Shown piece after piece: positions 4,930 through 63,920 of a DNA stretch of 64,000 nucleotides. This DNA comes from Venturia oleaginea (Eukaryota; Ascomycota; Dothideomycetes; Venturiales; Venturiaceae), in NCBI GenBank assembly GCA_013176395.1, contig JABMLP010000008.1, positions 1,364,001 to 1,428,000 of the forward strand, given 5' to 3'. Each line of letters begins with the position of its first letter. Position 1 is the first letter of the stretch. Below the pieces are notes generated by a model that was not told where the DNA came from, made no database searches, and saw only the letters and a program-made list of their open reading frames with translations. The position numbers and the translations under genes were made by a program.

Positions 4930-6312
4930 GCAGCCTCAGAGGATGGGACCCAGGGTAAGAAGGCGTTTAGGACGATGCATCACGATTATGACTGAGATAG
5001 AGAGACATCTGAAGAGTGTGCAATGATACAAGCATACTCCTTTCGAAAAAAAGAAGGACCAATCAGCTTCTCATCAATCGTGCCAGGATCTTCAGTCATC
5101 AACAACTCACTCGAGTCAGGATAGTTCACACAGGAAGATCAGTCTTGTCATTGCTGCTACCCATACCTGCAAACGATGGCTCCCCTCGTACTTTGAATCC
5201 ACGAATCCAACTATGTCACAGCAGTCTCTCAATCTCAGATCACCATCAATAAATTCCCAGAAACCGTGAAAACAAACTGACCCGTCAGAAACTGAACACC
5301 ATTCTTGATGTGAATATCATACGCAACTTCTAATCACGCTGCCAAAACAACATCAAGTATATATAACTGCCAGTGAGACCCCTTACCTCCCAAAAGATAA
5401 ACTTGGAGGATAGATACACGAGAATTAATCACAACCACAATCCCAAAGATCAAAAGGTCAAAGAAGCCCGCCTATACGTCCCAACCCAACATCTAGAGTT
5501 CTGAACCTACATTCTATCCATACAACAGGAAAGGAAAGTCAAAGACATGATTGAAAAATAAAATTATAGATCACAGTCCGCCGCTTCCTGCCCTCTCATA
5601 CAAATCTCCACTCCATCGAAAATAGAAAGGTTAATATCAATACTTCCGTAATGTGCTCAAAATTTCCAAATCTCAATGTCACAGATTATGCAGGGCGTCA
5701 ATATATTCAGTGCAATGGCATCATTGGAGCGACCTACGAGTGAGTAAGTAGGTGTAGAGGACGTGTAGTGAACAAATACATCATTGGACTTTGTGATATA
5801 TATCACGGGCACGGACAGAGAGCATTGCAAATATTAGCACACCATCATAAACTATGAAATTACAATTAGAAGAAATCGAGTCCAAACTATCCCCAAACAT
5901 CAAATTTTCACTGCACAAAGGGGGACAAGGCTGTGATATGGGCGCGTGCGGTGCCAGACAAGGTATTTCCATGCCCTAGTAGAGAAAATCGATGGAGAGA
6001 GATAGTCATGTGCAGTATACAACCATGAAAACCAACCAACATCCATCCATCCATCCATCCATATGCTTTGCTCGCTCGCTCACTCAAAAGGTCGAAGAGA
6101 AAGAGAAAGAAGGGAAACGCACCCGCTAGCTAAGAGAAGAGAGCCCAAACACAAACAAACGCTAAACAGACCCCTAGACAAAAGAAGAGATCATGACAAT
6201 GAGAGTCAAAAGTCAAGAAATGACCAATCTTCCACGACAGCCAGAATCATCAACAAGGCAACCGACGAATCAGTTGTTTGTCAAATCATCGATAGCCTAC
6301 CAAATAAAAAAG
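4930..6312. other. Intergenic region between convergent fes1 and ede1
   Basis: Non-coding. It should contain both 3' ends. A short CATC tetranucleotide microsatellite lies at about 6,040-6,061. Remaining open frames are short and overlap on both strands. Confidence 0.6.
6041..6061. repeat. (CATC)n microsatellite
   Basis: Five to six consecutive CATC units are visible directly. The tract lies between the 3' ends of fes1 and ede1. Confidence 0.9.
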
Positions 6313-9300
6313 TTAGAACTCCGCCTCCGCCCTCGCCTGCTTCGCAGCCAGAACCTCACTCACCTTGCCAAAATCATAATCGTACTTCTCCAATGTCCTC
6401 ACAACAGTGGACCTTGAATAGCCCATCGACACCAATCTCTGCACGCTAGGATCGTCATGCACAGAACTCTCTGTAATGGTCCTACCAAGGCTGGGCTTGG
6501 GAGCCTCCAGAGCCTCTGGTGGAGCAAATCTGCCACTGCCGCTCATTCTTGGTGGCTCAGATGGTCCGAAGACTGGAGGCGTGGGAGCTTCGGGAATACC
6601 TGCTCCGAATGGTGCGTTCTCTTCGAAGCCCTTTCCAAGACTAGATGCCGCGTTGGGAGGTTCGCTGCTGATACTCTTCATCATTGCATCCCAATCATCT
6701 TGTGGAGCCTTCTTTGAGCTTGCCGATGCTTGCAGGGAGTTGAAGTTGGTTTCGAAATCACCAAACGAGTCATCGCCGAAGCCAGATTTGCCAACTGTCG
6801 GTGTGCGCTCAGAAGCCATGGTGCCAGATTTGGACATTGCTGGAGAGTCAAAAGCTGGGTTGAACTCTTCAAAGCCTTCGTGATGCTGGGAGGTGAACAT
6901 GTAGTCATCATCGCCTTGATCGTCATCATCTTCCTTGGCCTCAGCAAGGTCATCGAAATCAGCACCAAAGTCATCATTGAAGGATGGTTTCTGGGAGTGA
7001 TTGCCAGAAGAAGAGCCTTTGTCTGTACCGCTAGCACTTGGGTGCGAAGGCGCGCTGTGGTAAGCGTCAGAAGGCACGGTAGACGAAGCCGGTGTAGTTG
7101 ACATTGGTGGAGGGGAGACTGAGAATGTGCTTGTTGGTGCAGCCGAGCCAGATTTACTGGTCGACGATCCACCAAAGAGTGCATGTCCTTGACCACCTGA
7201 AGCTGGAGTCACGAATGTGGCTGGTGGAGCCTGGGCTGGCGCTTGAGAAGGCGAGGCGATTGGATTGTCACGAGTGGGCAACAAGCCGCCAAACTCAGCA
7301 GGGAATCCACGCGGCTCAGAGGGCGAAGTCGAAGTGTTGTATGAAGGAGGCGACTGGTGAGCTTCTGGCCGAGGTGGCTCAGCTGCTGGCTGTGATGAGA
7401 AGAAACTGGCTGATGACGGCTCTTTACCGCTTATTGCAGGCCGGCTGCGGTCTTCGAAATCGTTCTGGCTTATCTTGCGCTGGTGAGCAGGGGATGCTTG
7501 CGTGAAGTCATCATCGAAACCCGCCTCGCTTTCCGAGTCACTTTCCGACTCTTTGACAGCGATCGGAGGGAATTCGGAATGGAACTTGTTCATAGCTGGA
7601 TCACCAAGAGAACCATTAGTCGACGAACCGGTCATTTGTCGTGCTGCAGGTTGATTACTGGCGCCTACACTTGCGAAGGCAGAGTCGAAGTCGCTCTTGG
7701 TTGTGGCCGTTCGACTTGGTTGGCTGTAAAGACTATCATTATCGGTTTCTTTGGCCAAAGGAGTTGGATCTGGGAAAGCTCCTGGGATGTCTCGGCCAAA
7801 GGACTTGAAGAAGTCAGGCTTGCTCTCTTGCTGCGGTCCTCGTGATTGTTGACTAGTGATGCTTGCGACAGGAGATGCATTGGCATTTCGATCAAAAAGC
7901 GAAGCTCCTGTGCTCTGGTTGGTGTCAGTTCTCATTGGCTCAGGTCTGTCGAAGGCAGAGGGCGAGGACGATGTGGCATTGGTTGGTGTCTCGTTGCCGG
8001 CATAACGGCTCACCGGTGACTCGACTCGTACGGAAGAGGCAGTAGTTTCGTTGCGTCCGCCGGCAAATGGAAGATCACTGGAAGTAATCTGACGAGACGC
8101 AGGTGGTGGCGGAAGATCCGCTGGGCGAGGAGACGCAGATGGAGTTGGCATGCCAACATCGGAGATTGATCGATCCGATGGTGGAGGGAAAGCTGATTGA
8201 CCGTAAGATGGTTGTGTTGCCGGGCTACCAGTTCGTGCTGCAGGGCCCCAGATGTTATCAAATTTGTTCGCACCAGCATTGACATTAGAATCTTTGGATT
8301 CTGGACGAGCAAAGCCACCTGGAGACATGGTGTTGTCTATCGAAGGCTGTGGAGACTTCCTGAAGAATGGATTGGTGCTCTGGCTTGCAGTGGATGGCGC
8401 AGGGCTGACAACAGTGGACTGTGGTAGCCCTCGAGAGTCATCGACTTGCGATCGGCTGAGTTCACTGATCTCGTTCTTCAAACCGTCACGTTCAGTCTCG
8501 CTCTTCTCCAGTTGTTTCTTGTTGATCGACACCATGCCCTTCTCGTGGCGGCTGTCATTCTTCATCTTTTCAAGCTGGGGACGAAGCTGGGCCATTTCAG
8601 CATTGATCTGACGCATGCGTTCCTTCAAGTTTGCGTTCTCTCGTCTCTCATTCTCCAAAGCCCCGCCTGCTTGCTGGTGCTGGGTTTGAAGATCGTGGTA
8701 GTCGGCCTCAAGAAGTGCATGGTCTTGCTGGAGGCGCTTCGTCTCTGCTCTAGACTTTGTAAGCTGTTCCTCGAGAACCTGGACAGCGCTGGCCTCCTGC
8801 TCGAATTGAGTGCGAAATTGACTCAAGCGAAGCTCTAGATCTCGTCGTTGAGAATTTGTGTTGTTAAGCTCGTTCTGGGTCACGACCTTCTTCTGTTGAA
8901 CTTCTTGCATCTGGTTCCTTAACGTTCCAATCTGGCTGGACATATTCGCTAGCTCAGCGGTCTCGTTGGTTAGCTTCTTGCTAATTTCTGGATCGTTGTC
9001 TCCAAGCAGGTCGTCCAAGGCTGATGGTGGAGAAGGTTTCATATCCCGGTTCTGCGCAGCGGACGAAGTGCCCGAGCCACCGGTTGTGTGTGTGGCCAAT
9101 CCTTGCCCAAACGATGAAGATGGGATGAATGGCTTGAAGTGAGAATTAGAAACACCACGAGGAGAGTTGCCGCGTGGAGAACTGTTGCCAAAGGTTTGAG
9201 ATGTTGGAGAACTGGTCTTGTTGTTGAAAGGATCATCAAATGAACGAACACCGCTGGCAGAGCCGCCAGTAATCTGCGATTTCTGTGGAGGCGCAGCAGG

Positions 9301-51459: not shown

Positions 51460-52105
51460 GTCTCAGGCCTGATATCGGAGCTTCTTGTTGTGCAGATCGA
51501 GTTGATGCTTGAGGTGTTGATAATATGTCGGGGCGATGCGATAACCGGTGAATCAAGCTCTCGAAGCGGTGAATTGGTAGAACCGGATGGGTACCGTAGA
51601 AATGGCAGCGAGGTGAGGTTGGTAGAGATGAGGATATTCCGGAGGGAGCAAGAGGGATGTTATGGTGTTGTAGGAGTGCTAGCAGGAGCAGGTGTTTGTG
51701 TTGTATTCGGTTGTCACTTATCACTGTCTTGGAGCCTCAACCTCCGACTATCTTCAGCTGCTAGCCACCTGCAGGGATGGATGGATGACATAGTAACGTA
51801 ACGGCGAGTAGTGGTGAAGAAGATTATATCGTGAATTGTACTTGTTTTTGCTTCTTGTCGCAGCTATCGCTTTGAATCCACATATCTCCCCATTCCTTGC
51901 TCCCTCTCCATCTTCTTAGCCGCTTCTTCCTCTTCCTCTTCCTCTTCTCACCTTCACCAACTCAACATCAGCCCAGAGCTATATCCAACACTGCTCTGCC
52001 ACGAACACATACTTCTCCACGCGCTTCCAGTCATCGCAAGACCATCCCCTCACCACCGCGAAACCCCCAGCAACCGATACAAATCACCACCTACACACCC
52101 ACGAA
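51460..52105. promoter_or_regulatory. Divergent promoter region, Pns1-like / Rab4-like genes
   Basis: About 650 nt between divergent start codons. The last 200 nt before 52,106 are C/T- and then A/C-rich, as in fungal 5' leaders. No gene seen. Confidence 0.5.
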
Positions 52106-52906
52106 ATGGCCCAACCCTGGGATTACATAGCCAAAATCGTCTCTCTGGGAGACAGCGGCTGCAGAAAATCTTCCCTAACGATTCGCCTCTGCGAAGGCCG
52201 CTTTGTAAACCACCACGATGTCACAATCGGCGTAGAGTTTGGTTCGCGCATAGTCCCTGTCGGTCCTCCCTTTTCGCATACCCTCAATATCAACAACCCC
52301 GGCCACCGAAAACAAGCCAGTATAGAAGCTGGATCTGGCGCAGGAGGAAAGGGGAAAGCTGGCGTCGTAGACAAGAACCAACGGCATATGAAACTGTCTC
52401 TGTGGGATACGGCAGGACAAGAAACATACAAGAGCATTACGAGGAGTTACTTCAGGGGTGCCAGTGGAGCACTGTTGGTTTTTGATATTACGAGGAGGCA
52501 AACCTTTTTGAGCGCGACCGCCTGGCTTCAAGATCTACGACAAATTGCCGAGGAAAACATTATCGTCGTTTTGGTTGGAAATAAGAGCGATTTAGCACCA
52601 TCGAGCACAGTCACGAAATCAACAGATGCGCCGCAGGAAGGGGAGGATGGGAAGAATCTGAGGGAGGTTACTGTTCAAGAGGCGGAGACGTGGTGTAGAC
52701 AGAATCATGTTTTGCAATATGTGGAGACAAGCGCGAAGAGTGGTGAGGGCGTGGAAAGAGCTTTCCTAGAAGTTGCAGAGCGGATATATCAGAACATCGA
52801 AGCTGGGAAATACGATCTGAAGCGACAGGAGAAGTGGCGTCAAGAGCGCAGCAACAGGAGGCGGCAATGGGAATACAGCAAGGACTGTAAACCTGGGTAT
52901 GAATGA
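52106..52906 (+). pseudogene. Rab4/Ypt4-like GTPase with altered P-loop and C-terminal frameshift
   Basis: The open frame gives 266 residues with G-domain motifs: VTIGVEFGSR (switch I), WDTAGQE at 100-106, GNKSDL and ETSAK. A Gly/Lys-rich insert of roughly 35 residues lies between switch I and WDTAGQE. Two defects are visible. The P-loop reads GDSGCRKSS, with Arg20 (AGA) where the GK[ST] motif requires Gly. After Leu238 the frame turns into a basic tail (KRQEKWRQERSNRRRQ) with no prenylation cysteines, whereas the +1 frame reads SDRRSGVKS and ends in GGKGGGICC at 52,954-52,956, a normal Rab tail. One extra A at 52,820-52,821 explains this. Such proteins act in endosome recycling. This copy probably cannot be prenylated or bind nucleotide normally. 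Confidence 0.8.
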
Positions 52907-53324: not shown

Positions 53325-53588
53325 TCAGGACTGATGACTCCTCGCATTCTCAAACTTACGCAAAAACTCCTCCATCCGCTCTTTATCAGTTTTCTTCGGA
53401 CAGGCAGCGCATATGACGTGTCCGCAACTAGGGACGCTACAGATAGCCCCCTCTGCAGTTGCATCTATTGCTTCATGGGGTTCTCCACGGAGGAGGCAGT
53501 GACAGCATTTCCAGGTGTAGGAGCGTGGGGTTTGGGCTTGGGGTTGGGTGGTTTTTGTTGGTGGTGGTTGTGTGGGTTTGGGATCCAT
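53325..53588 (-). CDS. Zinc-module protein 1 of the array
   Basis: A single 87-residue frame. A Pro/Thr/Gln-rich N-terminus (about 1-23) precedes YTWKCCHCLLRGEPHEA, then ICSVPSCGHVICAACPK, and a charged helical tail (DKERMEEFLRKFENAR). Eight cysteines and one histidine are arranged as W-x-C-C-x-C ... C-x(4)-C-G-H-x-x-C-x-x-C, suitable for one or two zinc ions in a treble-clef or ribbon-like fold. No signal peptide. It is the only array member on the minus strand, placed head-to-head with the next one across a region of tandem 118-nt repeats. I do not recognise a named family. A binding role for nucleic acid or protein is speculation. Confidence 0.68.
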   Translation of the reverse strand: MDPKPTQPPPTKTTQPQAQTPRSYTWKCCHCLLRGEPHEAIDATAEGAICSVPSCGHVICAACPKKTDKERMEEFLRKFENARSHQS

Positions 53589-54165
53589 TTGCGAGAGGTG
53601 ATGAGGTGGGTTTTCGGGGTTGTTATGGGGTATGGGGCTAGGTGGTTGTGGAGAATGGTGATGTTGAGAGGAGTGGCCGGAGTTTTATGGTTTGGGAAGA
53701 ACGGGGAGGTTTAGGTTAATCCGTATTTGAGGAGATGGGTCGGAGTGGTTTTTGGCGCGACATGCTCGTGTCAGTGAGAAATGAGAAAATTAAGTCATCG
53801 TGATGTTACTGTGGGTGTGGAATGAGGTGGAATGATAGGCGTTCTTCCCAGAAGGTGCATTTATTAGTCCAAGGCTGTGTCACAAGATTCACATTACTTA
53901 TCTGCCCCTATTGTTAGCTATGATTACCACTCACATTACAAACTATGGAAAGATAGGCGTACTTCTAGGAAGGTGATTTGTTGGTCTAATGCTGTGTAAC
54001 AAGATTCACATTACTCATCTGCCCCTATTATTAGCCATGATTACCCATCACATCACAAGACGACACTCGAATATTTAAGGAAGAACCTGTCGCCCACACT
54101 TATCCTAACCCCATAACTCCATTCCAGTCGAGTATCGAAACCTGTATTACTAAATTGTACCAACC
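53589..54165. promoter_or_regulatory. Divergent promoter of zinc-module genes 1 and 2, with tandem repeats
   Basis: 577 nt between divergent ATGs. It contains two direct repeats of about 109-118 nt (53,834-54,060), described separately. No open frame. Confidence 0.55.
53834..54060. repeat. Two tandem repeats with a 118-nt period
   Basis: Copy 1 starts at 53,834 and copy 2 at 53,952. Shared blocks include GATAGGCGT, AAGATTCACATTACT, CATCTGCCCCTATT (ATC versus CATC at its start), TTAGC-ATGATTACC and CACATTACAA/CACATCACAA. Point differences are scattered, so the duplication is not recent. Confidence 0.9.
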
Positions 54166-54303
54166 ATGACACAAGAAGAATGGCTCTGCTGTCGTTGTTT
54201 ACTCTATTTCGGAGGAGAAATTACGATGTTTGTGACGCTGGATATGTGTGTTGTATGTCAGCATTCGCGGTGTGGGCGTTGTTTAGTGAGACCGGTGGAA
54301 TGA
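54166..54303 (+). CDS. Zinc-module protein 2 of the array (45 residues)
   Basis: A frame of 46 codons from ATG 54,166. It is shorter than usual gene-finding limits but carries the full array pattern: EEWLCCRCLLYFGG, then LDMCVVCQHSRCGRCLV. Cysteines are spaced W-x-C-C-x-C ... C-x-x-C-x-H-x-x-C-x-x-C, the same as its neighbours. The protein is essentially only the module. It lies downstream of the tandem repeats and about 40 nt after an A/C-rich leader (CCAACC before the ATG). Whether it is translated is unknown, but pattern conservation against six other modules argues for selection at some time. Confidence 0.62.
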   Translation: MTQEEWLCCRCLLYFGGEITMFVTLDMCVVCQHSRCGRCLVRPVE

Positions 54304-55308
54304 TGGATGAGGGTGGGTTCTGGTAGGAGTGTGGGGGGAAAGGAAAGAGTTAGGGGTTTGGAGGTGTTGGAGTGTTTGACCTGGGTGCAGGAGCGAAGCG
54401 GGTTTTGTTTCGATAGGAGTAAGTGAGTGAGTTGGAATGATGAGATGTGAAACTGACTTTATGTTGGTGTATGTTTGAAACAACCTCACAGAATCCAGCA
54501 TAAGACATCTCTCATCAACTGCCTATTCCTCCGTCGCCGCCCATACCTCACCTCCTACCTCATTCGGGGCTAAAACACCACGCTTTACCACCAATCCACT
54601 CAATCCCAAATCCAAATCCAAATCCCATATCCATCTCTCCAGATTCAACCCATTCTCCGACCCATTCTCCGAAAACAGTCAGGAATTGAGAAATTTCAAC
54701 TTTGGCCTTGAAATCGCCGGGATTCTTCAAGTAGTATTTCGAGGTGAGAGTCGTTGTATTGGTAGTAGATCTGATGTAATTTGATGTAAGTTAGACTTGC
54801 TAATCTTCAAGGTGAGGAAGCTAGAACTTGTTGAGAATTACTCCCACGCAGCGAAAGTAAAAAAATAGCCCATTGTGAAATCTGGGATCCGCAAGGGGCG
54901 TGTAACAGAGTTAACCAGACGAACAATAAGTTTGATATCAGGACAGCGTGAGATATCAGGCAAGAGCGACCTGACAAAGTAACCTGGCTAAGAAGAACAG
55001 CATAATAGAAGCACCCCGCATCTAATATGTTACCATCACGTCATGTACTAGTAAAACATTTTGATCATACGCACCGTATTAGAAGCTATAAATACCGCTA
55101 CACCTTACTCTAGCCAATCTTCTCTTCTCCAATATCCAGCATCCAATTACCACTCGATCAATCAAACAACCTCAACGATCAATACAATTAACAATACGAA
55201 TATTAATACGAATATTAATACGAATATTAATACCAATACCGACAGCTCGACAGCTCAAACCAAACTAACCCTTCAAACAACCTACGAATTAAGACAATTA
55301 AATTAGCA
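54304..55308. promoter_or_regulatory. Upstream region of zinc-module gene 3
   Basis: About 1 kb without a gene. Short runs of AAATCC and ACCCATTCTCCG repeats occur at about 54,608-54,672. A TATAAATA element is at 55,087-55,094, about 220 nt before the ATG. Three copies of a 12-nt AT-rich unit lie at 55,193-55,235 in the probable leader. Confidence 0.55.
55193..55235. repeat. Tandem 12-nt repeat in the leader of zinc-module gene 3
   Basis: The unit AATACGAATATT is repeated three times, followed by a degenerate AATACCAATACC copy, ending about 70 nt upstream of the start codon. Confidence 0.9.
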
Positions 55309-55602
55309 ATGGAAGCTAAGGCCTGGATCTGCTGCCAGTGCGCAAAGGGCGAAGAGAGGCAATTCCACAGGACGCTGTCTTCGGCGTGTAAGCAGTGTCT
55401 TATCAAAGAGTGCGGACATAATCAGTGCGATGTTTGTACTGAGATACCTCTGGGATATATCGAGAAGGAAGAAACAGCAGCAAACAAGAAGGCGAAAAAG
55501 GAGCCACACGAGAGTAAGAAGTGTTACAGATCACCTCAAGACCGAAGAGCAGGGACAACGGGACTTGCAGAGGATGGTTGGATAACAAGAAGTTGTTGTT
55601 AG
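55309..55602 (+). CDS. Zinc-module protein 3 of the array
   Basis: A single 97-residue frame. The module is N-terminal: AKAWICCQCAKGEERQF, then SACKQCLIKECGHNQCDVCT. It has the W-x-C-C-x-C pair, an extra C-x-x-C, and C-G-H-x-x-C-x-x-C. After the module comes a Lys/Glu-rich tail (EKEETAANKKAKKEPHESKK) and a C-terminal RSCC. The final two cysteines resemble a prenylation-type end but the context is not a known CaaX box. A good promoter arrangement (TATAAATA and an AT-rich leader) supports expression. Function unknown; cytosolic or nuclear by lack of a signal peptide. Confidence 0.7.
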   Translation: MEAKAWICCQCAKGEERQFHRTLSSACKQCLIKECGHNQCDVCTEIPLGYIEKEETAANKKAKKEPHESKKCYRSPQDRRAGTTGLAEDGWITRSCC

Positions 55603-56939
55603 GACTGATGTGGAGTGGAATCCGTTGGGCGCACAAGAGGGGACTGGTGCAACCAGGTCAGTCCTAAGAGAGAATAGTACGTGCAGGAGTCACGTGATAT
55701 TCCACAGTTCCCACAGCACTTGGCATTGCCCACAGTGTGGGAAGTGTGGGAATACACCTTGGCACCCAGAACCAGAAGGGTATATAGGGAGGACGTTGGA
55801 CGGACTTTCCTTTCTCTCTTCGTGGTTATCTCATGTTATGTTTCTCACATAGGAGCTTCTTCAACCTACTACAGTAACGACCTTTTACTTAGATACAATC
55901 AAGCACAAGTCATATGCACACGAAGCAAGCCCACCCCCAACCTTCATACTAACCGACAAGCGTTCAGGATTGATCTGAGGATCAAATCGGTTAGACGACA
56001 ATTGAATTGGGAGATACATCGGACGGCTAGGATCTAGTGAGCCTCCAAAGAACCTGAGCAAGGAAATGTACTTAAGGTAAGTACTTCCAGACTGATATTG
56101 CCCTTACCCCAAACCCGCGGACCAGAACAAGAGAACACAGGTGTCAAGAAGGTCTTGACATAATCAACTGTGTTGAGAAACGAGTTCCCCGTAACAAGAA
56201 GGCGGAGAGTCTAGAGGATGATGCAAAAGATGTTTGGGAGAGAAAATGGACGGCGAGGCAGAAAAGGGCGGGAGAGAAGCTGGTGCAAAAGAGAGCGCCA
56301 TAGAGAAGCTTGAGGCTTACGTGGATTTGCTGAAGAAGGTTGTCGTCGGAGATCCTGTGAAGGATGGTGAGAGGAAGGAAGTGGAGGGGGATAAGGATGT
56401 GGCGAGTAAGGAGTGAAAGGGGAGTACGGTGAAGGTCGTGTTAGATTATTGAGAAGATGAGGTACAGGCATGGTTGGGGCTAGAAACGATATTTAGCTGG
56501 CGCGGAAATCTGGAATCATTGGCTTCGAGGATGAGAGAGGGAGTGTGAATGTGAACATTGGACGGCTTATCTGTAAAGCTTATGTAGCAGTGAAACTTGG
56601 AAGATACTTACATGATTTTGCATATCAAATTCTAACGTGAAAGCTGGTCAGCGTCTGGTAAGGCCCAATAAAGTTGAATGATGGTAGTAATAAATAGGAT
56701 AGCTACCCGAAATATTCAGGCATCACCATGTAGCAAGTAACCGAAAACCCGGCTGCAGGGTAAAGTGCCGTACCAATAGCGTTAGGTAACTGACACATGG
56801 CTGCCCGGCATAAAAGTGTGAAGAAGCATAATCAGTGACAAAGTTAGCCGCAGCTCGCCATAAAGAGGAGCATCTTACCCTTAACCTCCCCATACTCAAC
56901 ACCACCACCATATCCGAAGACAAAACCCAGCACCCGAAG
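55603..56939. other. Array spacer with a possible decayed module
   Basis: Includes a palindromic CCCACAGTGTGGG at about 55,731-55,743 and a possible relic module at 56,130-56,416. Otherwise I see no gene. Confidence 0.5.
56130..56416 (+). pseudogene. Possible decayed zinc-module gene
   Basis: One frame reads TREHRCQEG followed by LDIINCVEKRVPRNKKAESL and a charged stretch, similar to the E-H-R-C end of the modules but without two of the cysteines. The neighbouring frame, from ATG 56,246, gives a Lys/Glu-rich helix (SAIEKLEAYVDLLKKVVV) ending at 56,416, like the charged tails of array members. The assignment rests on weak similarity and position within the array. Confidence 0.3.
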
Positions 56940-57089
56940 ATGATTTACTCATTACGATCGCGCACAATGCGAGCTTGCAAGTGCTGCAAGTGCGATAAAG
57001 GATTCCCGATAACATACGAACATTGCCACAATGGGATTTGCAAGCATCGTTGTTGCCTTGCATGCAGAATTCTGATTGAGTTTATATGA
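56940..57089 (+). CDS. Zinc-module protein 4 of the array (49 residues)
   Basis: A 50-codon frame from ATG 56,940. The sequence is MIYSLRSRTMRACKCCKCDK followed by a short loop, then HCHNGICKHRCCLACRIL. The first cluster is C-K-C-C-K-C, with Cys where the other members have Trp. The second is H-C-H-x(3)-C-K-H-x-C-C-x-x-C, one residue different in spacing from the rest. Nine cysteines and three histidines in 49 residues make it the most metal-ligand-rich member. It is the most divergent intact module and may be losing function or have a shifted ligand set. Confidence 0.55.
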   Translation: MIYSLRSRTMRACKCCKCDKGFPITYEHCHNGICKHRCCLACRILIEFI

Positions 57090-57664
57090 GAAGGAGGTTA
57101 GAGCGTTGACATGCTTTTCGAATATGCGGTACTTACTCCTTCATTGACGACGATAAACCCATGGCGTTCTTGTGGGTTTGCCGTCTCAAAGGTCCGCCGA
57201 AGTCCGAATCGACCGGATGCGCAGATCTCCTGACAGAAACGACTTTCGAATTCCGGCGAGCGACGTATATCGCGGCATCGACAAGCCGAAGAGGTCAGAA
57301 AACGAGCTGGTTTTCGATCCCCAGAAAACGAGATTAGAAATAGTATCGACAACTCGACGAGTGAGGCTGAAGAGCGAAAACATTCATCAGTTTCCAGAAG
57401 TCGAAGCTCATAGCAGAATTGACTGGTCACAGTAGACGGTAGACCATGGTGAAGAAGAACATCCATGGCCGTCACACAAGGAAGGAAACCGCCATTAGCC
57501 TGAAGGTGTTAGGATCCGCAGATGTTACAAAAACAACACATCACATACCCACATCACTCCTATATACATAAGCTCACCTTGCTGCCTATCTCTCCAGCAA
57601 CTCCTCACCATTCCGAGATCATCCAAGGAAGCATACGGACCATTACCAAGTACACAACCTTAGC
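57090..57664. other. Array spacer
   Basis: Both strands carry open frames of 85-125 codons here, each the shadow of the other. One plus-strand translation (57,172-57,435) is Arg/Lys/Glu-rich and could be a lost C-terminal tail. I do not call a gene. Confidence 0.45.
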
Positions 57665-58683
57665 ATGCAAAACACACCCAAAGAACCAACACGGCAAGGT
57701 TGCAAATGCTCTGCCGTAAAATCAATGGCAGAAACCGATTGCCTCACAAGAGCGAAAGGGTACAAAGGGGCCGATCCAGGTCCAGCAATTTGTACTCATG
57801 AACGTTGTAATGAGTGTCTTGCAACTACTCCCACGCCCGCACCTACTCCGATGCTCGCATCTGCGCCGCAGCCAAAGTTAATGTTGAAACCTAGCTTTTA
57901 CCAATCGTTATTAAGGTCGAATACGGTAAAAGCGGCATCAGCAGTCGAAGCTACAGTAAATGATCATGAAGTTACAACGCCGAAAGAGGCGCAAGTATCG
58001 AGAACGGAGCCTTCATACCTAGAAGAAGCTCCGGTACAGAAGAAGAAGCGGGGCGGCCTGTGGAAGAAAGCGGTAGCGAAAGATGGAGCTGTATCAGTGG
58101 CCGAGACACCAGCAGAGGAAGTGGAAGTGGCCGAGACACTTGAGATAGAGGTTCCAGAAATTGAAGTACAGGACGTTGTTACACCAAAGCACCAGACATC
58201 AAAGAAGAACAGGGTATCGCCGAAGCAGGCCCCGAAGCGACAGTACCAGTAGCCAAAGAAAATCCACCGGCCCCTGAAACAGTCACAGTAACGAGAGATC
58301 TTCCAGCAACGAAAAGAAGGTTGGGTAAGTGGTGGCCGAAGTCAGAAACAACATTATCAGCATCCAAACAAATCTCCATGACTGAAGCAACGACAGCAAA
58401 AGAAGAACCAAGGGACGAAGCAACAACAACAACACCGACATTTGGAGACATCCAGCTGTCTCGATATTATACATATACACCTCACGAATCTCCCACGCTA
58501 GACTTACCCGAAGGCCTACACCACGCTTGGCAATGTTGCGCATGTCAGACTGGAAAATTGCACCGTGTATGTCCTGGTGATGAGATTTGCCCATTATTAC
58601 TGCCTAGAAGTGGGGTGAGGTGTACACATAAACAGTGTAAAGACTGTACGAAGAGGATCATGAGGGGGGTGTTTTATGATTGA
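57665..58683 (+). pseudogene. Two-module zinc protein of the array, frames offset in the linker
   Basis: Two abutting frames appear to be one gene. The first (57,665-58,252) starts with a module QGCKCSAVKSMAETDCL ... ICTHERCNECLATT, where the leading Trp and one Cys are lost. It then enters a long Ala/Glu/Val-rich linker with RGGLWKKAVAK. The second frame is open from about 58,175 to 58,683 but has no ATG until 58,378. It continues the linker in the same style (KRRLGKWWPKSE) and ends in a full module, HAWQCCACQTGKLHRVCPGD ... VRCTHKQCKDC. A one-base loss within about 58,165-58,235 would explain the switch. No splice pair fits better. Alternatively these are two genes. The WWKK/KWWPK repeats in the linker suggest internal duplication. 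Confidence 0.6.
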
Positions 58684-59080
58684 GATTATTGATGGATGCT
58701 TGGGAGTGGTTGTGATTGTGGCAGGAGTTGTGGGAGACTCGGAGAGAAGATGGGTTAGCGGAGTGCTTGTAGTTGCGTTATGAGTGTATGGTATGATTAA
58801 GATTTGAAAGTTCGAGGGTCGATGTTTGCTTGTAGGAGTGACAGAGAAAGTGACAGATCTATTGATGACCTGTTTAGAATCAGCGCTAACAGCTATCTTG
58901 TAACAATCAACAAAGGAAAACATACCTTTTGTCACGCGCTCCATCGATGATCATAAATATCCCCTATTGGAGTCTCTTTCTATTCTGCTTTGCACACAAT
59001 TTTTTTTTGACAGAACCGCTTCTAATTTGTTGGCAGCAGCGACTTCATATTTCCTATTACCCATAAACGTAAACGAAAAA
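58684..59080. promoter_or_regulatory. Upstream region of the last intact array gene
   Basis: About 400 nt with no gene. It contains a run of T near 58,990-58,998 and an A-rich leader immediately before ATG 59,081. Confidence 0.5.
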
Positions 59081-59230
59081 ATGAACACGAGAAGCCCCAA
59101 GACACCGATGCCTTACTGGATCTGCCACTTGTGTCATATCTATCGCCAGATCGAGATAAGAAATGCCGTGGGAAGTAAAAACTGCAAAGCAGAAGGATGC
59201 GGATACGCGCGGTGCCTCGATTGCGGCTAG
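59081..59230 (+). CDS. Zinc-module protein 7 of the array (49 residues)
   Basis: A 50-codon frame, MNTRSPKTPMPYWICHLCHI, a short loop, then KNCKAEGCGYARCLDCG and stop. Pattern: W-x-C-H-x-C ... C-x(3)-x-C-G-Y-x-x-C-x-x-C. The usual His of the C-x-H-x-x-C-x-x-C part is Tyr, and the second Cys of W-x-C-C-x-C is His. A ligand swap could keep one metal site. The protein ends directly after the last cysteine pair. The leader is A-rich (AACGAAAAA before the ATG), a good fungal start context. Function unknown. Confidence 0.58.
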   Translation: MNTRSPKTPMPYWICHLCHIYRQIEIRNAVGSKNCKAEGCGYARCLDCG

Positions 59231-59543
59231 GGCGTTGTCACGAAACAGGTGGGGAAGTAGAGAAAGCGCGATATGTTGAGTGGTGGAGGCATCTTTGAGT
59301 CTATTATTCTTGGAAAGATGGAGCGTTGCGGACAGATAGGAGGAGTGGGAAGCAATGATTCATGACTACATGTAAAGTTCATGAGCGAAAAGAGTCTTGC
59401 ATAGCGTGATATTAGTTAGTCATACCGATCGCTGTTCACGCTTGTCTTGTATTGACTAACGTGATTGCGATGATGTCTTACCTTTTTCCTTCATTTACCC
59501 GCGAGAGCTAGCTTTTATCAGATAGTTGCGAGCCAGGCCTCAC

Positions 59544-59699
59544 TACTTCGATCCAGAAAATTTTGCGCCTCCCTTCCCACCATCGTGGTTCTGAGTTTGC
59601 TGCATATGCTATAGCCATCATGATATCAAAACATTCAGGTCTCAGTATATCAGTATATGCCAGTGCGCATGATGCATCTGCTGTGAGCGATATATATGA
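59544..59699 (+). pseudogene. Relic zinc module (R1) with in-frame TGA
   Basis: The frame reads YFDPENFAPPFPPSWF, TGA at 59,592-59,594, then VCCICYSHHDIKTFRSQ, ICQCA, another TGA, CICCERYI and stop. The Pro-rich lead, the Trp, the C-C-x-C pair and the closing C-C-E-R correspond one-to-one to relic R2 some 420 nt downstream. No ATG starts the frame. It is a decayed duplicate of an array member. Confidence 0.7.
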
Positions 59700-59959
59700 T
59701 CAAAGTCGCGAGTGCTCCAGATTCAGGCGCAGGCCACGCACCTATCTTCCGTATTGATACTTTCAAGGGATGATCAAATATACTGAAAAAGTCAGCATCG
59801 ACAGATCGCGAGAAAGGGAAAGGATGATTGCTACTCAGTTCAGTCATACCCACCTTTAAATCGCCATAGACTGCGACATAAAGAATCATCTACTCCTCCA
59901 CAGCAGCACCGCCAGTCTACTACAATCAAACAGCCACTATCGACAACCGGAACAGAACG

Positions 59960-60139
59960 ATGTTCGGTTACTTCGATCCGACCGCAGAATACTACGTTCC
60001 ACCCTTCCAGCCATCTTGGGTCTGAGTCTGCTGCGTATGCCACGCCAGCAGTGGTAGAAAGAAATACATACTATCTAGTCAAGCACGATGCGCGTTGTGC
60101 CTACATAGGCGACGCGAATGTTGTGAGAGATTTATATGA
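59960..60139 (+). pseudogene. Relic zinc module (R2) with the same in-frame TGA
   Basis: From ATG 59,960 the frame reads MFGYFDPTAEYYVPPFQPSW, V, then TGA at 60,023-60,025, then VCCVCHASSGRKK, QARCALCLHRRRECCERFI and a stop at 60,137-60,139. It matches R1 in length, in the FDP start, in PSW-x-stop-VCC-x-C and in CCER-aromatic-I-stop. Nucleotide similarity is clear around TTCTGAGTTTGCTGC / GTCTGAGTCTGCTGC. Apart from the TGA the frame is intact, so either the codon is bypassed or the gene died recently. Confidence 0.72.
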
Positions 60140-61029
60140 GCGAGAATGGTGTAGGAATGATGGGGATTTGAGGGATACGTTCTCGCGCCCAGAAGTGCGC
60201 TTGATTTATTGTGGTACCACAGTAGAATACAGAACGGGGCGCCACACTCTGGATTGGCTCCTGCAAGCAATCTGTCCTTCCTTACTACGGGTCTCTCGAT
60301 GTCATGATCTGGAAATGTTACTCTACACCCAAATGGTGGTGCTGTGTCCCCGCTGTAATGTGAGAAATGTTTTCTTCCGGCCCCACTAACTGATGTCTAG
60401 CAAGGATTATGGGACATTTAGGAAACTAAAGCTGAGCTACCTCAACTTTGGCCTCTATGTAGTCAGTACTCTTGAGAAAGTGCCAACGGCGCGGAAGATA
60501 CGAACCGTTATCTCATGTCTGGGGGCGACAGGGTTCCCGTCAACCTGGCTGATGCTCTCCGAGACATCCGGACTAAGAGAATGTTCCGTTTGTTCTTCGT
60601 CCAGCCGGGAGATATCGCTATCGATTGGTTGGTGAATGCTAGTATCTTGGAGGACCGATGGAAAGGCTAGCCATCAGTGGGTTTATTTCCCGGCCTGTTT
60701 TTGACGGAGAAAGAAGGTAGGATTCGGGGTCGAAAAACCGGACGCTTATTAAGCCACCTGATAGGACGAGCCGATGACTACTGGCCTCAGAGAATGGGTT
60801 AGAATAATCAAGAAGATCACTCGCTGCCCACGTGAGGGAAAGCCTTCTGCACTTGGACCGGCAATTCTACTGCAATCCTTGATTAACAATCTTCGGATTC
60901 CCATCGAAATCCATAAACCTCTCGCGGACGTCGAAGTTGAATTGCCAGATATTCTCAGTATCAATATCGATCTTGATTTGCAAGCGTTGTGCTGCAGTCA
61001 GTTGATTTCTTAAGTATCTAACCCCTATT
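60140..61029. other. Region of coding relics
   Basis: A possible third degenerate module lies at 60,331-60,435 (PKWWCCV..., then CLARIMGH after two stops). Protein-like but unassignable fragments follow in several frames, for example FVQPGDIAIDWLVNASILED near 60,590-60,655 and ADVEVELPDILSINIDLDLQ near 60,925-60,985. I see no intact gene. Confidence 0.4.
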
Positions 61030-61983
61030 CTACTTCAACGTCAGAACTTCGGCAGCGCGCCAATGGAAGAACAACAAAACCGCAGCCACCCCAGCCAGTG
61101 GATGCCATATAATACCGTGTGGTTGAAAGTGACTTGTGGGATTGCACAAAATCTTTCCAGTCTGCGATAGGCCCCAGAACACCGCCGCCACCACTCCAGA
61201 TATGAATGCGCACCACCAAAAGCTTGAGCTTAAGCTACCTGTCCATGGCTTTCCTGCTCTCCAAATTTGCAATTCGAGAAGCAAGTACGCAAGCAAGGGC
61301 GCGATCACCAGCAACATTGAAGTCTCCTTGAACCTAGGTTGCACAAGAGCATGTACGATTGTCAGAGCGGCAACGAGGAAGCAGTATCCAAGCCAGAATA
61401 TCGTAGGTGACGGAACAAAACCCCGGCGCAATGAAAAGACCACCAAAAAAGCCATAAACATATATATTGACACCGCGTCGAGGATTCCACCCCACATCGT
61501 TAGTGATGCGTGAAACCACATACTGCCCAGCCCCAAGAATAACACCACAAAAACGTATAAATCTGCCACCCAGGTGTCCGAGCCTCGTATTAGGTTCTTG
61601 CTTCCAGAATCCCGAGTTTTCCGACGATCCATACACACCACCGCCGCAACGAGGGAAGAGGTGAACAACGCGTACAGATTCGACCATGTATTGACCGCTT
61701 GCCGGACGCCGGGTTCGCCGATATCGGAGGATTCGAACGCTTCGCACCAGCATGTATTTGTTGGTGTTGTAGTGGTGCAGGGATCTGGGGTACCTGGCCA
61801 ACCGTAGTGGACGAATAGGAAAAAGAAAAGGAGGATGGTGAATGAGGTGGATGTCCAGACTATGAGGCTTCTGTACAAAAGGAAGCGGTGTCGACGACTT
61901 GCTGGGTGCGGAGAAGTCTCTGATATTAGATTGGTTTCGACTTCAGAGGGGAGGGTGGATGCGAGGACGTGGAGCTCATGCAT
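61030..61983 (-). CDS. CREST-superfamily membrane hydrolase (ceramidase/PGAP3-like)
   Basis: From Met at 61,983 the single exon gives 317 residues with about seven hydrophobic helices. CREST metal-site motifs are visible: S-x(3)-H in LGSMWFHASL, D-x(3)-S/Y in GILDAVSIYMF and the C-terminal H-x(3)-H-type region HGIIWHPLAGVAA. This superfamily contains alkaline ceramidases, PGAP3/Per1 and adiponectin receptors, all membrane hydrolases with a His/Asp zinc site. A short lumenal segment with cysteines (PDPCTTTTPTNTCWCEAFES) follows the first helix. An upstream in-frame Met at 62,082 would add 33 residues without a membrane or signal character, so I prefer the internal start. Substrate not determinable. 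Confidence 0.75.
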   Translation of the reverse strand: MHELHVLASTLPSEVETNLISETSPHPASRRHRFLLYRSLIVWTSTSFTILLFFFLFVHYGWPGTPDPCTTTTPTNTCWCEAFESSDIGEPGVRQAVNTWSNLYALFTSSLVAAVVCMDRRKTRDSGSKNLIRGSDTWVADLYVFVVLFLGLGSMWFHASLTMWGGILDAVSIYMFMAFLVVFSLRRGFVPSPTIFWLGYCFLVAALTIVHALVQPRFKETSMLLVIAPLLAYLLLELQIWRAGKPWTGSLSSSFWWCAFISGVVAAVFWGLSQTGKILCNPTSHFQPHGIIWHPLAGVAAVLLFFHWRAAEVLTLK

Positions 61984-63920
61984 GGTTAGGTGGATAAGGT
62001 AACGATTGTTGATTGCGTACACACAATCAGTATTGTGGTTCTGGGCAATAAGACAAGTTGACAGGCTGCGGAAGGAAGGCACATTGGAATGTAAGGCCCG
62101 TCGATGCCCCTTGCCGATTAACAGGAGCGTCCAAATTCTGACCGGTATTGATTATTTCCTGGCCTTTGATCAAAGTTATTGTTGCTAGTAGTTCATCGAT
62201 ATTGATCATGAGTTCCAGGGACTTTTATATATTGGGGTTTGTACTTCAACTTGGACAATCCACACGTTTTTGAGTGACTGAGTGGGTGATTCTATGAGCT
62301 CTGCTCCCATAGCAAAGCCTAGCTGAAATACGTAGATTAGTTCATTCCTACCCCTCCAGTAATAAAAACTCTTTTAAAAAGGCTCGGTATATCTTCAAAG
62401 CCTCTGGAGCGGTCCTGTCCGAGTCCTCAGCTGTTAATGCATCCCCTTATCGTATATCAGAATTGCGGGCGTTGCTCTCTCAATATTACTCACTCAGTCA
62501 TTCGAAAACGTGTGGATATTCCACGTTGATGCACAAACCACAATAGACGGTAGATCAATTGTCGAAATAGTGAGAAGGTGAGATGGATCAGTGGATTGAT
62601 TGTGGGGGAACATTGAGGCATGGTACAGCGCTGTGTCTACAATCGATTCCGGAAGTAGCTCAGTGTGTTGCCATTCAGCTAGGTTCCTGGGAAGTTTGGA
62701 TAAGTTCTGTCAATGCAAAATGAAGGCGAAAATAAGCATCTCAGCGTACATCATATCCATGCAAGCGCAGACTAGAGCATATTTAACCGAGCGAGGTAAG
62801 GAACATCAAACCCTCGAGTTTATTCTTAGGCCATTGCTTAAAGTACCTGGGCTATGCCTAGAAGTATCTCCTGGTGCTAGGATGGTTAATAATCTCGACT
62901 CGGCCTTGACTGCGGTAGAGGCCTCAGATTCCGACTTCTGCCGCGGATTCCACGACTTTTTAACACAGACCCTAAAAGAAGACCCTTCCTTACTTTAAAC
63001 CGCTTTGGGCAGCCTAATTTTGAGGAACTGATGTCGAGCCGCGCCGTCGTTTAGGTGATTGGGAATCTCTGATACTTCCCTGTGATTCTTCGGAGGTCGT
63101 ATTGTTGAACATGCTTGCTTTACACTGTGTTCCATTGGAGTGTATAGGTTATGTAATCGAGACGAGAGCTACCGATGTCCTATCTTTATACCATGTGATA
63201 GCAACATGCTAGTGTCGGTCTCCGTATTACTAATATCGTATCGCTATCGCCACATTTCTGGCAACATTCCTTACATCCGAATTATCTCGAGCTTTACGTC
63301 CGAATTACCTCCTACATTCGTGAGATAACTCTCAGCCCTATCTTGTCGAAACGCTCATGTGATTGATAACTTTCACATAGGAGTGTCTTGCTCGCTGCAG
63401 ATCAAATTTAGCTTTTTTGGAGGAACGAAGCAGCGAAAATTAAAATACAAAGAAAGTGAGAAAAAGTCGAAGGCAGAAAGAGATCACAGAGATGAAAGAA
63501 AAGAAAGAGGCGATGTTCGGCCACCAAGCTTTTGATCTGCCGATCTCCAGCTGGAAATCGGGCCTTCTGGGAAAACCCGATACCTATCCAGGAGCAGTCA
63601 AAGCCATCAGCTTCCGATATCAGAGCATCGGCGTGACGCAATTATCGTCGGCCTATCGACCATGTCGGATTCGGCCTATCTGTCGGCATAATGTTATGAT
63701 CTACAGCGGCCTTAATCAATTATCATGACATTTTTACCCCAATATGCTCCATGGGCTAAGTCCACGTATCCCATGGTCTTAGCTGGGGTTGGGTTTTATT
63801 AAATTGCGTCTCCGCATATTGTATGCCTGGGGCAAAACTGGGACCACAAACCTTCGCTTTTCGAGAGGTTGATCAACTATACTCATTATTCGTTTTTATC
63901 AGATACTGCTCGCTGCAATT
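61984..63920. other. 1.9-kb region with a MITE and no supported gene
   Basis: Contains the inverted-repeat element at 62,232-62,543 and the promoter of the terminal transporter gene. A 132-codon frame at 62,600-62,998 has no recognised domain. Confidence 0.5.
62232..62543. mobile_element. MITE-like element with ~59-bp imperfect inverted ends and TA flanks
   Basis: The left end (62,232-62,290) and right end (62,485-62,543) are inverted copies about 83% identical over 59 nt (roughly 10 differences). The ends begin TTGGGG and TTGTGG. Both share TCCACACGTTTT and GACTGAGTG. The element is bordered by TA on each side (62,230-62,231 and 62,544-62,545), the target duplication of Tc1/mariner/Fot-type transposons. 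Total length is 312 nt with no coding capacity, so it would need a transposase supplied in trans. Family assignment beyond TA-target is not possible here. Confidence 0.85.

Follow-up and report, generated by a model that had tools for sequence, protein, structure and literature searches.

A partly decayed array of tiny cysteine-module genes in Venturia oleaginea and its probable three-module relative

A 64,000-nucleotide stretch of the Venturia oleaginea genome (GenBank assembly GCA_013176395.1, contig JABMLP010000008.1, forward-strand positions 1,364,001 to 1,428,000; hereafter the window) holds, at 53.3-60.1 kb, an array of six full cysteine modules, one half module and two relics, all within 7 kb. 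The full module, W-x-C-C/H-x-C ... C ... C-x-H/Y-x-x-C-x-x-C, has six matches in the window, among which the six cysteines, the His/Tyr and the Cys/His adjoining the first cysteine are constant. The units, with the lengths of the open reading frames (ORFs) of units 1, 2, 3, 4 and 6 counted from ATG, are as follows:

53325-53588, minus strand: unit 1, an ORF of 87 amino acids; module WKCCHC...CSVPSCGHVICAAC at 53400-53513
54166-54303, plus strand: unit 2, an ORF of 45 amino acids, nearly all module; module at 54181-54282
55309-55602, plus strand: unit 3, an ORF of 97 amino acids; module at 55324-55437; codons from 72 on are inserted repeat
55522-56196, no strand assigned: an element of 675 bases resembling a solo long terminal repeat (LTR), TGTTAC...GTAACA, with the 5-base target duplication agaag
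56940-57089, plus strand: unit 4, an ORF of 49 amino acids; module CKCCKC...CKHRCCLAC at 56976-57065, lacking the W
57665-58252, plus strand: unit 5a, an ORF of 195 amino acids; half module GCKC...CTHERCNEC (57791-57817) and a long charged tail
58165-58683, plus strand: unit 5b, an open frame of 172 amino acids from stop to stop; module WQCCAC...CTHKQCKDC at 58528-58647
59081-59230, plus strand: unit 6, an ORF of 49 amino acids; module WICHLC...CGYARCLDC at 59117-59224, in which Tyr replaces His
59544-59609, plus strand: relic A, a W-x-stop-V-C-C-x-C remnant
59969-60040, plus strand: relic B, a W-x-stop-V-C-C-x-C remnant, preceded by an ATG at 59960

The motifs named in a preliminary description of this DNA, which proposed an array of units with a common cysteine pattern, are thus all present, and the array stands. 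The list of closing motifs given there needs amending, since it omits CKHRCCLAC, the partner of CKCCKC, and includes CTHERCNEC, the end of the half module. The full pattern occurred in none of 40 windows simulated with a second-order Markov model; as it was written after the motifs had been seen, this excludes composition as its source and nothing more. The closing motif C-x-H/Y-x-x-C-x-x-C alone was found eight times in the window, compared to a simulated mean of 0.3 and a maximum of 2, and one of the eight (57527-57553, minus strand) lies outside any module. A scan of 10 kb on either side of the window (L064 and L077) revealed no further full module. Its neighbors are two ORFs, one for a GTPase of the Ras family (51920-52903) and one that is ceramidase-like and on the minus strand (61033-62151); directly upstream of unit 2 lies a tandem duplication (53828-54058) with a period of 117-118 bases and 83-87% identity.

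Decay within the array is real: one member is cut by a transposon, one is split and two are relics. The LTR-like element was inserted after codon 71 of unit 3, so that the last 26 codons of this unit's charged tail are inserted repeat, and each of the 149 other scored protein matches of the unit 3 ORF runs through the inserted part. The element has at least 43 copies elsewhere in the genome (40 of 491 first-look candidates were scored), one at 82% identity and the 42 others listed at 91-100%, and its family looks young; a role in genome conflict, also proposed earlier, finds nothing in its favor beyond this one insertion. Units 5a and 5b overlap in different frames (57572-58252 and 58165-58683), and as a credible intron joining them was looked for and not found, we read unit 5 as either frame-broken or two ORFs. 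Of the reported size range of 45 to over 300 residues, the lower end is borne out by unit 2, and the upper is reached only across these two frames. Relic A matches relic B at 74% identity over 72 columns, and in both a common in-frame stop separates the W from the cysteines, indicating that copying probably took place after the first was broken, or that the stop has another meaning. Relic B is also overlapped, in a different frame, by a 200-amino-acid open frame (59787-60389) that has no Pfam match and returns itself alone in a genome search.

We then looked at the whole genome (46,083,126 bases in 61 contigs, the window being positions 1364001-1428000 of contig 60). C-x-H-x-x-C-x-x-C had 206 matches, RING genes included, compared to 70 for a reversed control, W-x-C-C-x-C had 299 compared to 99, and the narrower C-x-H-x-[H/K/N/Q/R/S]-C-x-x-C had 47 places compared to 22. 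Among 100 listed W-x-C-C-x-C places, out of the 299, five (C3:226006, C5:28651, C6:880222, C8:30002 and C8:67973) carry the identical 18 bases TGGGAGTGTTGTGAGTGT, which may belong to another repeat. A script checked all the narrower matches except C56:1389649 for a C-x-x-C further upstream, and 22 fetched loci were also read by eye; elsewhere, members with no clear first pair may have slipped by. Of the 46 scanned places, 18 proved to be modules of the family: the window has four, a second array (L065) three and a single protein (L066) another three, with one at each of eight other loci (L009, L018, L023, L048, L051, L052, L057 and L059). The module of L059 (1400-1530) has its first cysteine motif seemingly split by an intron, and contiguous patterns will therefore miss some members.

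Some 70 kb rightward of the window lies the second array, which consists of three module genes (L065 a-c, at 5190-6800 of that locus), with the result that seven of the 18 modules fall within 80 kb of contig 60. Its copies are still alike and have similar 5' leaders: L065c shares 60% and 55% identity with its two neighbors, and 61%, 53% and 40% with L052, L051 and L009, respectively; L023, in turn, is 61% identical to L059, 50% to L018, 43% to L048 and 31% to L065c. When units 1, 2, 3 (its module alone) and 5b were searched singly against the genome, a search that covered these four units, each returned itself alone. Given that the L065 copies are alike and the four window units match only themselves, we take the window array to be the older of the two. 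The small single-module genes, from L009 to L065c, resemble those of the window in their short ORFs and in mostly carrying W-x-CC-x-C and C-x-H-x-x-C-x-x-C, but have only 1-3 residues between the third and fourth cysteines (C3 and C4), unlike the four common in the window (C-x4-C is present in four of six window modules and absent from all 11 other single modules; Fisher p 0.006).

L066 carries three modules in one open frame of 277 residues, and a protein search with it yielded 20 homologues among 283 candidates, those named being from Venturia inaequalis (P0008, 63% identity), Venturia nashicola, Tothia fuscella (P0015) and Aspergillus ambiguus (P0019). Its nearest named homologues are thus from Venturia, and a Leotiomycete placement, as first suggested for this DNA, is probably wrong. 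All three modules are present in 14 of the 20 homologues by a strict pattern, some of the others being partial or having one residue changed, and basic linkers (IRMRVR and AKYGL) are conserved among the three-module proteins. Their module, C-[H/C/D]-x-C-x(9-11)-C-x-x-C-x-H-x-x-C-x-x-C, in which a Tyr or Trp frequently stands at the second position before the first cysteine, is similar to that of the window. The window differs in that neither linker motif occurs in any of its six frames, that at most one and a half modules lie close together, and those in two frames, and that only one of its six modules has the C3-C4 spacing of 2 found in the three-module family.

Whether these sets form one family was assessed with profiles built without window sequences and run on all window ORFs of at least 20 residues in six frames. 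The genome-module profile, built from ten non-window modules, ranked unit 2 first (expectation value, E, 1.3e-6) and unit 5a second (0.0016), and with a joint profile unit 6 appeared as well, at 0.01, slightly beyond the inclusion line. The HMMER bias correction takes about 7-25 bits off several of these cysteine-rich ORFs; in a shuffle test it was switched off and each module was compared with 1000 composition shuffles of itself. With the three-module profile, no shuffle scored as high as units 2, 3 and 6, and one, two and 13 did for units 1, 5b and 4, respectively; with the genome-module profile, there were none for units 2, 3 and 5b, one for unit 4, two for unit 1 and 105 for unit 6. With a profile of RING halves, the shuffles scoring as high numbered one for unit 3, three for unit 1, eight for 5b, 12 for unit 2, 60 for unit 4 and 328 for unit 6, so that part of the signal is common to any such order of cysteines and histidines. 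Profile-profile comparisons, each a single comparison and not a database search, gave a probability of 90% for window versus three-module, 71% for window versus genome modules and 55% for genome versus three-module, compared to 4% for window versus five RING halves of the same genome (2-8% for each set). For the five full-module units other than unit 2, the family link rests on these comparisons together with the shuffles.

Several results weigh against a single, functional family. In the six-frame scan, only one full-module ORF in six reached significance with the genome-module profile, and none of the window ORFs did so with the three-module profile by itself (best E 0.036, unit 2); in the shuffles, unit 6 failed with the genome-module profile and unit 4 was weak. 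In a tree of 27 modules, no branch is well supported, and the window modules do not come out as one group. The window modules drew a blank in a search of 5.8 billion proteins (one candidate, none scored), as did three genome modules in a protein search. Structure models have no significant match in the PDB, and codon usage does not single out the array ORFs as coding, a test that also misses a Ras-family gene. Together with how little the units match outside the ligands, the profile scan, the weakness of units 4 and 6 and the unsupported tree are what one would cite for convergence, in which small cysteine-rich ORFs gained metal binding independently and came to be clustered by chance. We regard this as quite unlikely in view of the concentration of modules on contig 60, the shared C-x4-C spacer and profile-profile matches far above those to RING halves. 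Neither the window ORFs nor ten genome members nor the L066 protein had a Pfam match that reached a shown cut-off.

A RING finger has C-x-H-x-x-C-x-x-C at its center, the module's order C-x-x-C ... C-x-H-x-x-C-x-x-C resembles the first half of RING and FYVE fingers, and weak PDB sequence matches were obtained; the units might then be half-RINGs, truncated from E3 ligases, as weak RING matches of single members would allow. However, RING matches with scores shown all fell under the curated cut-off (for zf-RING_5, the best score among nine window ORFs was 13.6 bits, the cut-off being 27.9), and the last RING cysteine pair has no counterpart, as no cysteine follows the module in units 1, 2, 4, 5a and 6, nor in 5b within its frame, and the three that follow it in unit 3 all lie inside the inserted repeat. 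With the low profile-profile values for RING halves added, this origin seems very improbable. No FYVE match was listed among Pfam results for the nine window ORFs, and the best among 15 three-module sequences, at E 0.013, fell short of the curated cut-off. The signature of RanBP2-type (NZF) zinc fingers starts W-x-C-x-x-C, as the module does, but the module adds an extra H-x-x-C-x-x-C, and no zf-RanBP match was listed at E up to 10 among the nine window ORFs. The model of unit 2 has a mean predicted local distance difference test (pLDDT) score of 79. That of the three-module protein has weak Foldseek matches (E above 1) that include zinc ribbons and RanBP2-type fingers, which does not bear out the shared treble-clef fold put forward for structure prediction. 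Zinc binding, the other part of that proposal, is plausible, fitting the ligand pattern and the moderate model.

Although the units have no clear DNA similarity to one another, TGT and TGC are mixed (15 and 21 of 36, respectively) in every one of the six cysteine columns that are invariant among the window modules, pointing to a constraint at the protein level over a long part of their history and suggesting that the protein is what was kept. Pairwise ratios of nonsynonymous to synonymous substitution (dN/dS) among the non-window genes range from 0.50 to 2.70, too noisy to support a claim. All seven units tested, relic B included, have a TATA-like 7-mer (one mismatch at most) 50-250 bases upstream, compared to 39% of random non-coding stretches. 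Both signals bear on the possibility that the whole array is dead, made up of remnants of one-time genes that no longer yield functional products, as the transposon-cut member, the frame-split member, the two relics with their common stop and the uninformative codon usage would suggest. Yet neutral decay so deep as to erase DNA similarity would presumably have broken the pattern, and six units keep all six cysteines. A dead array is therefore unlikely, in our estimate, though by no means negligible.

In the six ORFs tested, the first cysteine pair lies at residue 8-28, and no strongly hydrophobic or signal-peptide-like stretch precedes the module in units 1-4, 5a and 6, as judged with no dedicated predictor and with upstream exons not excluded. 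The absence of such a start, together with the TATA-like elements, suggests separately expressed intracellular modules. It also argues against secreted effectors akin to the expanded small cysteine-rich families of Venturia, a genus for which large effector-like families are reported (PMC4646964). Small size, cysteine richness, clustering, a nearby transposon and the Venturia relatives of the three-module protein would suit such effectors, which we nonetheless consider the most doubtful of the explanations weighed here.

To summarize, we lean, with somewhat better than even confidence, towards the array being an old, partly decayed birth-and-death cluster of a tiny single-module fungal family; judged from sequence, this family is probably related to the conserved three-module ascomycete protein. 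Birth-and-death, already proposed in the preliminary description, is supported by the relatives in the genome, the second array whose copies are still alike, the shared spacer, the relics and the transposon-cut member, and local turnover of this kind among small genes is already known from fungi. Each intact unit would most likely yield a short intracellular protein comprising little beyond one metal-stabilized knuckle. With the ligand frame kept and the loop between the cysteine pairs varying, the loops may offer protein (or nucleic acid) partners, perhaps those of the three-module protein, a binding surface that differs between units. A more far-reaching scheme, which we consider unlikely though not negligible, would be an ascomycete-wide zinc-module superfamily in which the three-module protein repeatedly spawned local bursts of stand-alone mini-modules that kept only the metal frame, varied the loops, acted as competitors or adaptors for the parent's partners and then decayed.

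No description of the family was found in the open-access literature searched, within which both the family and its three-module link appear to be unnamed. At 45-50 codons, genes like these lie close to or under the usual limits of gene calling, and a family of this sort can go unnoticed or be annotated piecemeal. The three-module link provides a handle on the function of these tiny genes, and as a larger relative exists, competition with a larger protein becomes testable; if the mini-modules do compete with the three-module protein, they would represent fungal microprotein regulation born by duplication.

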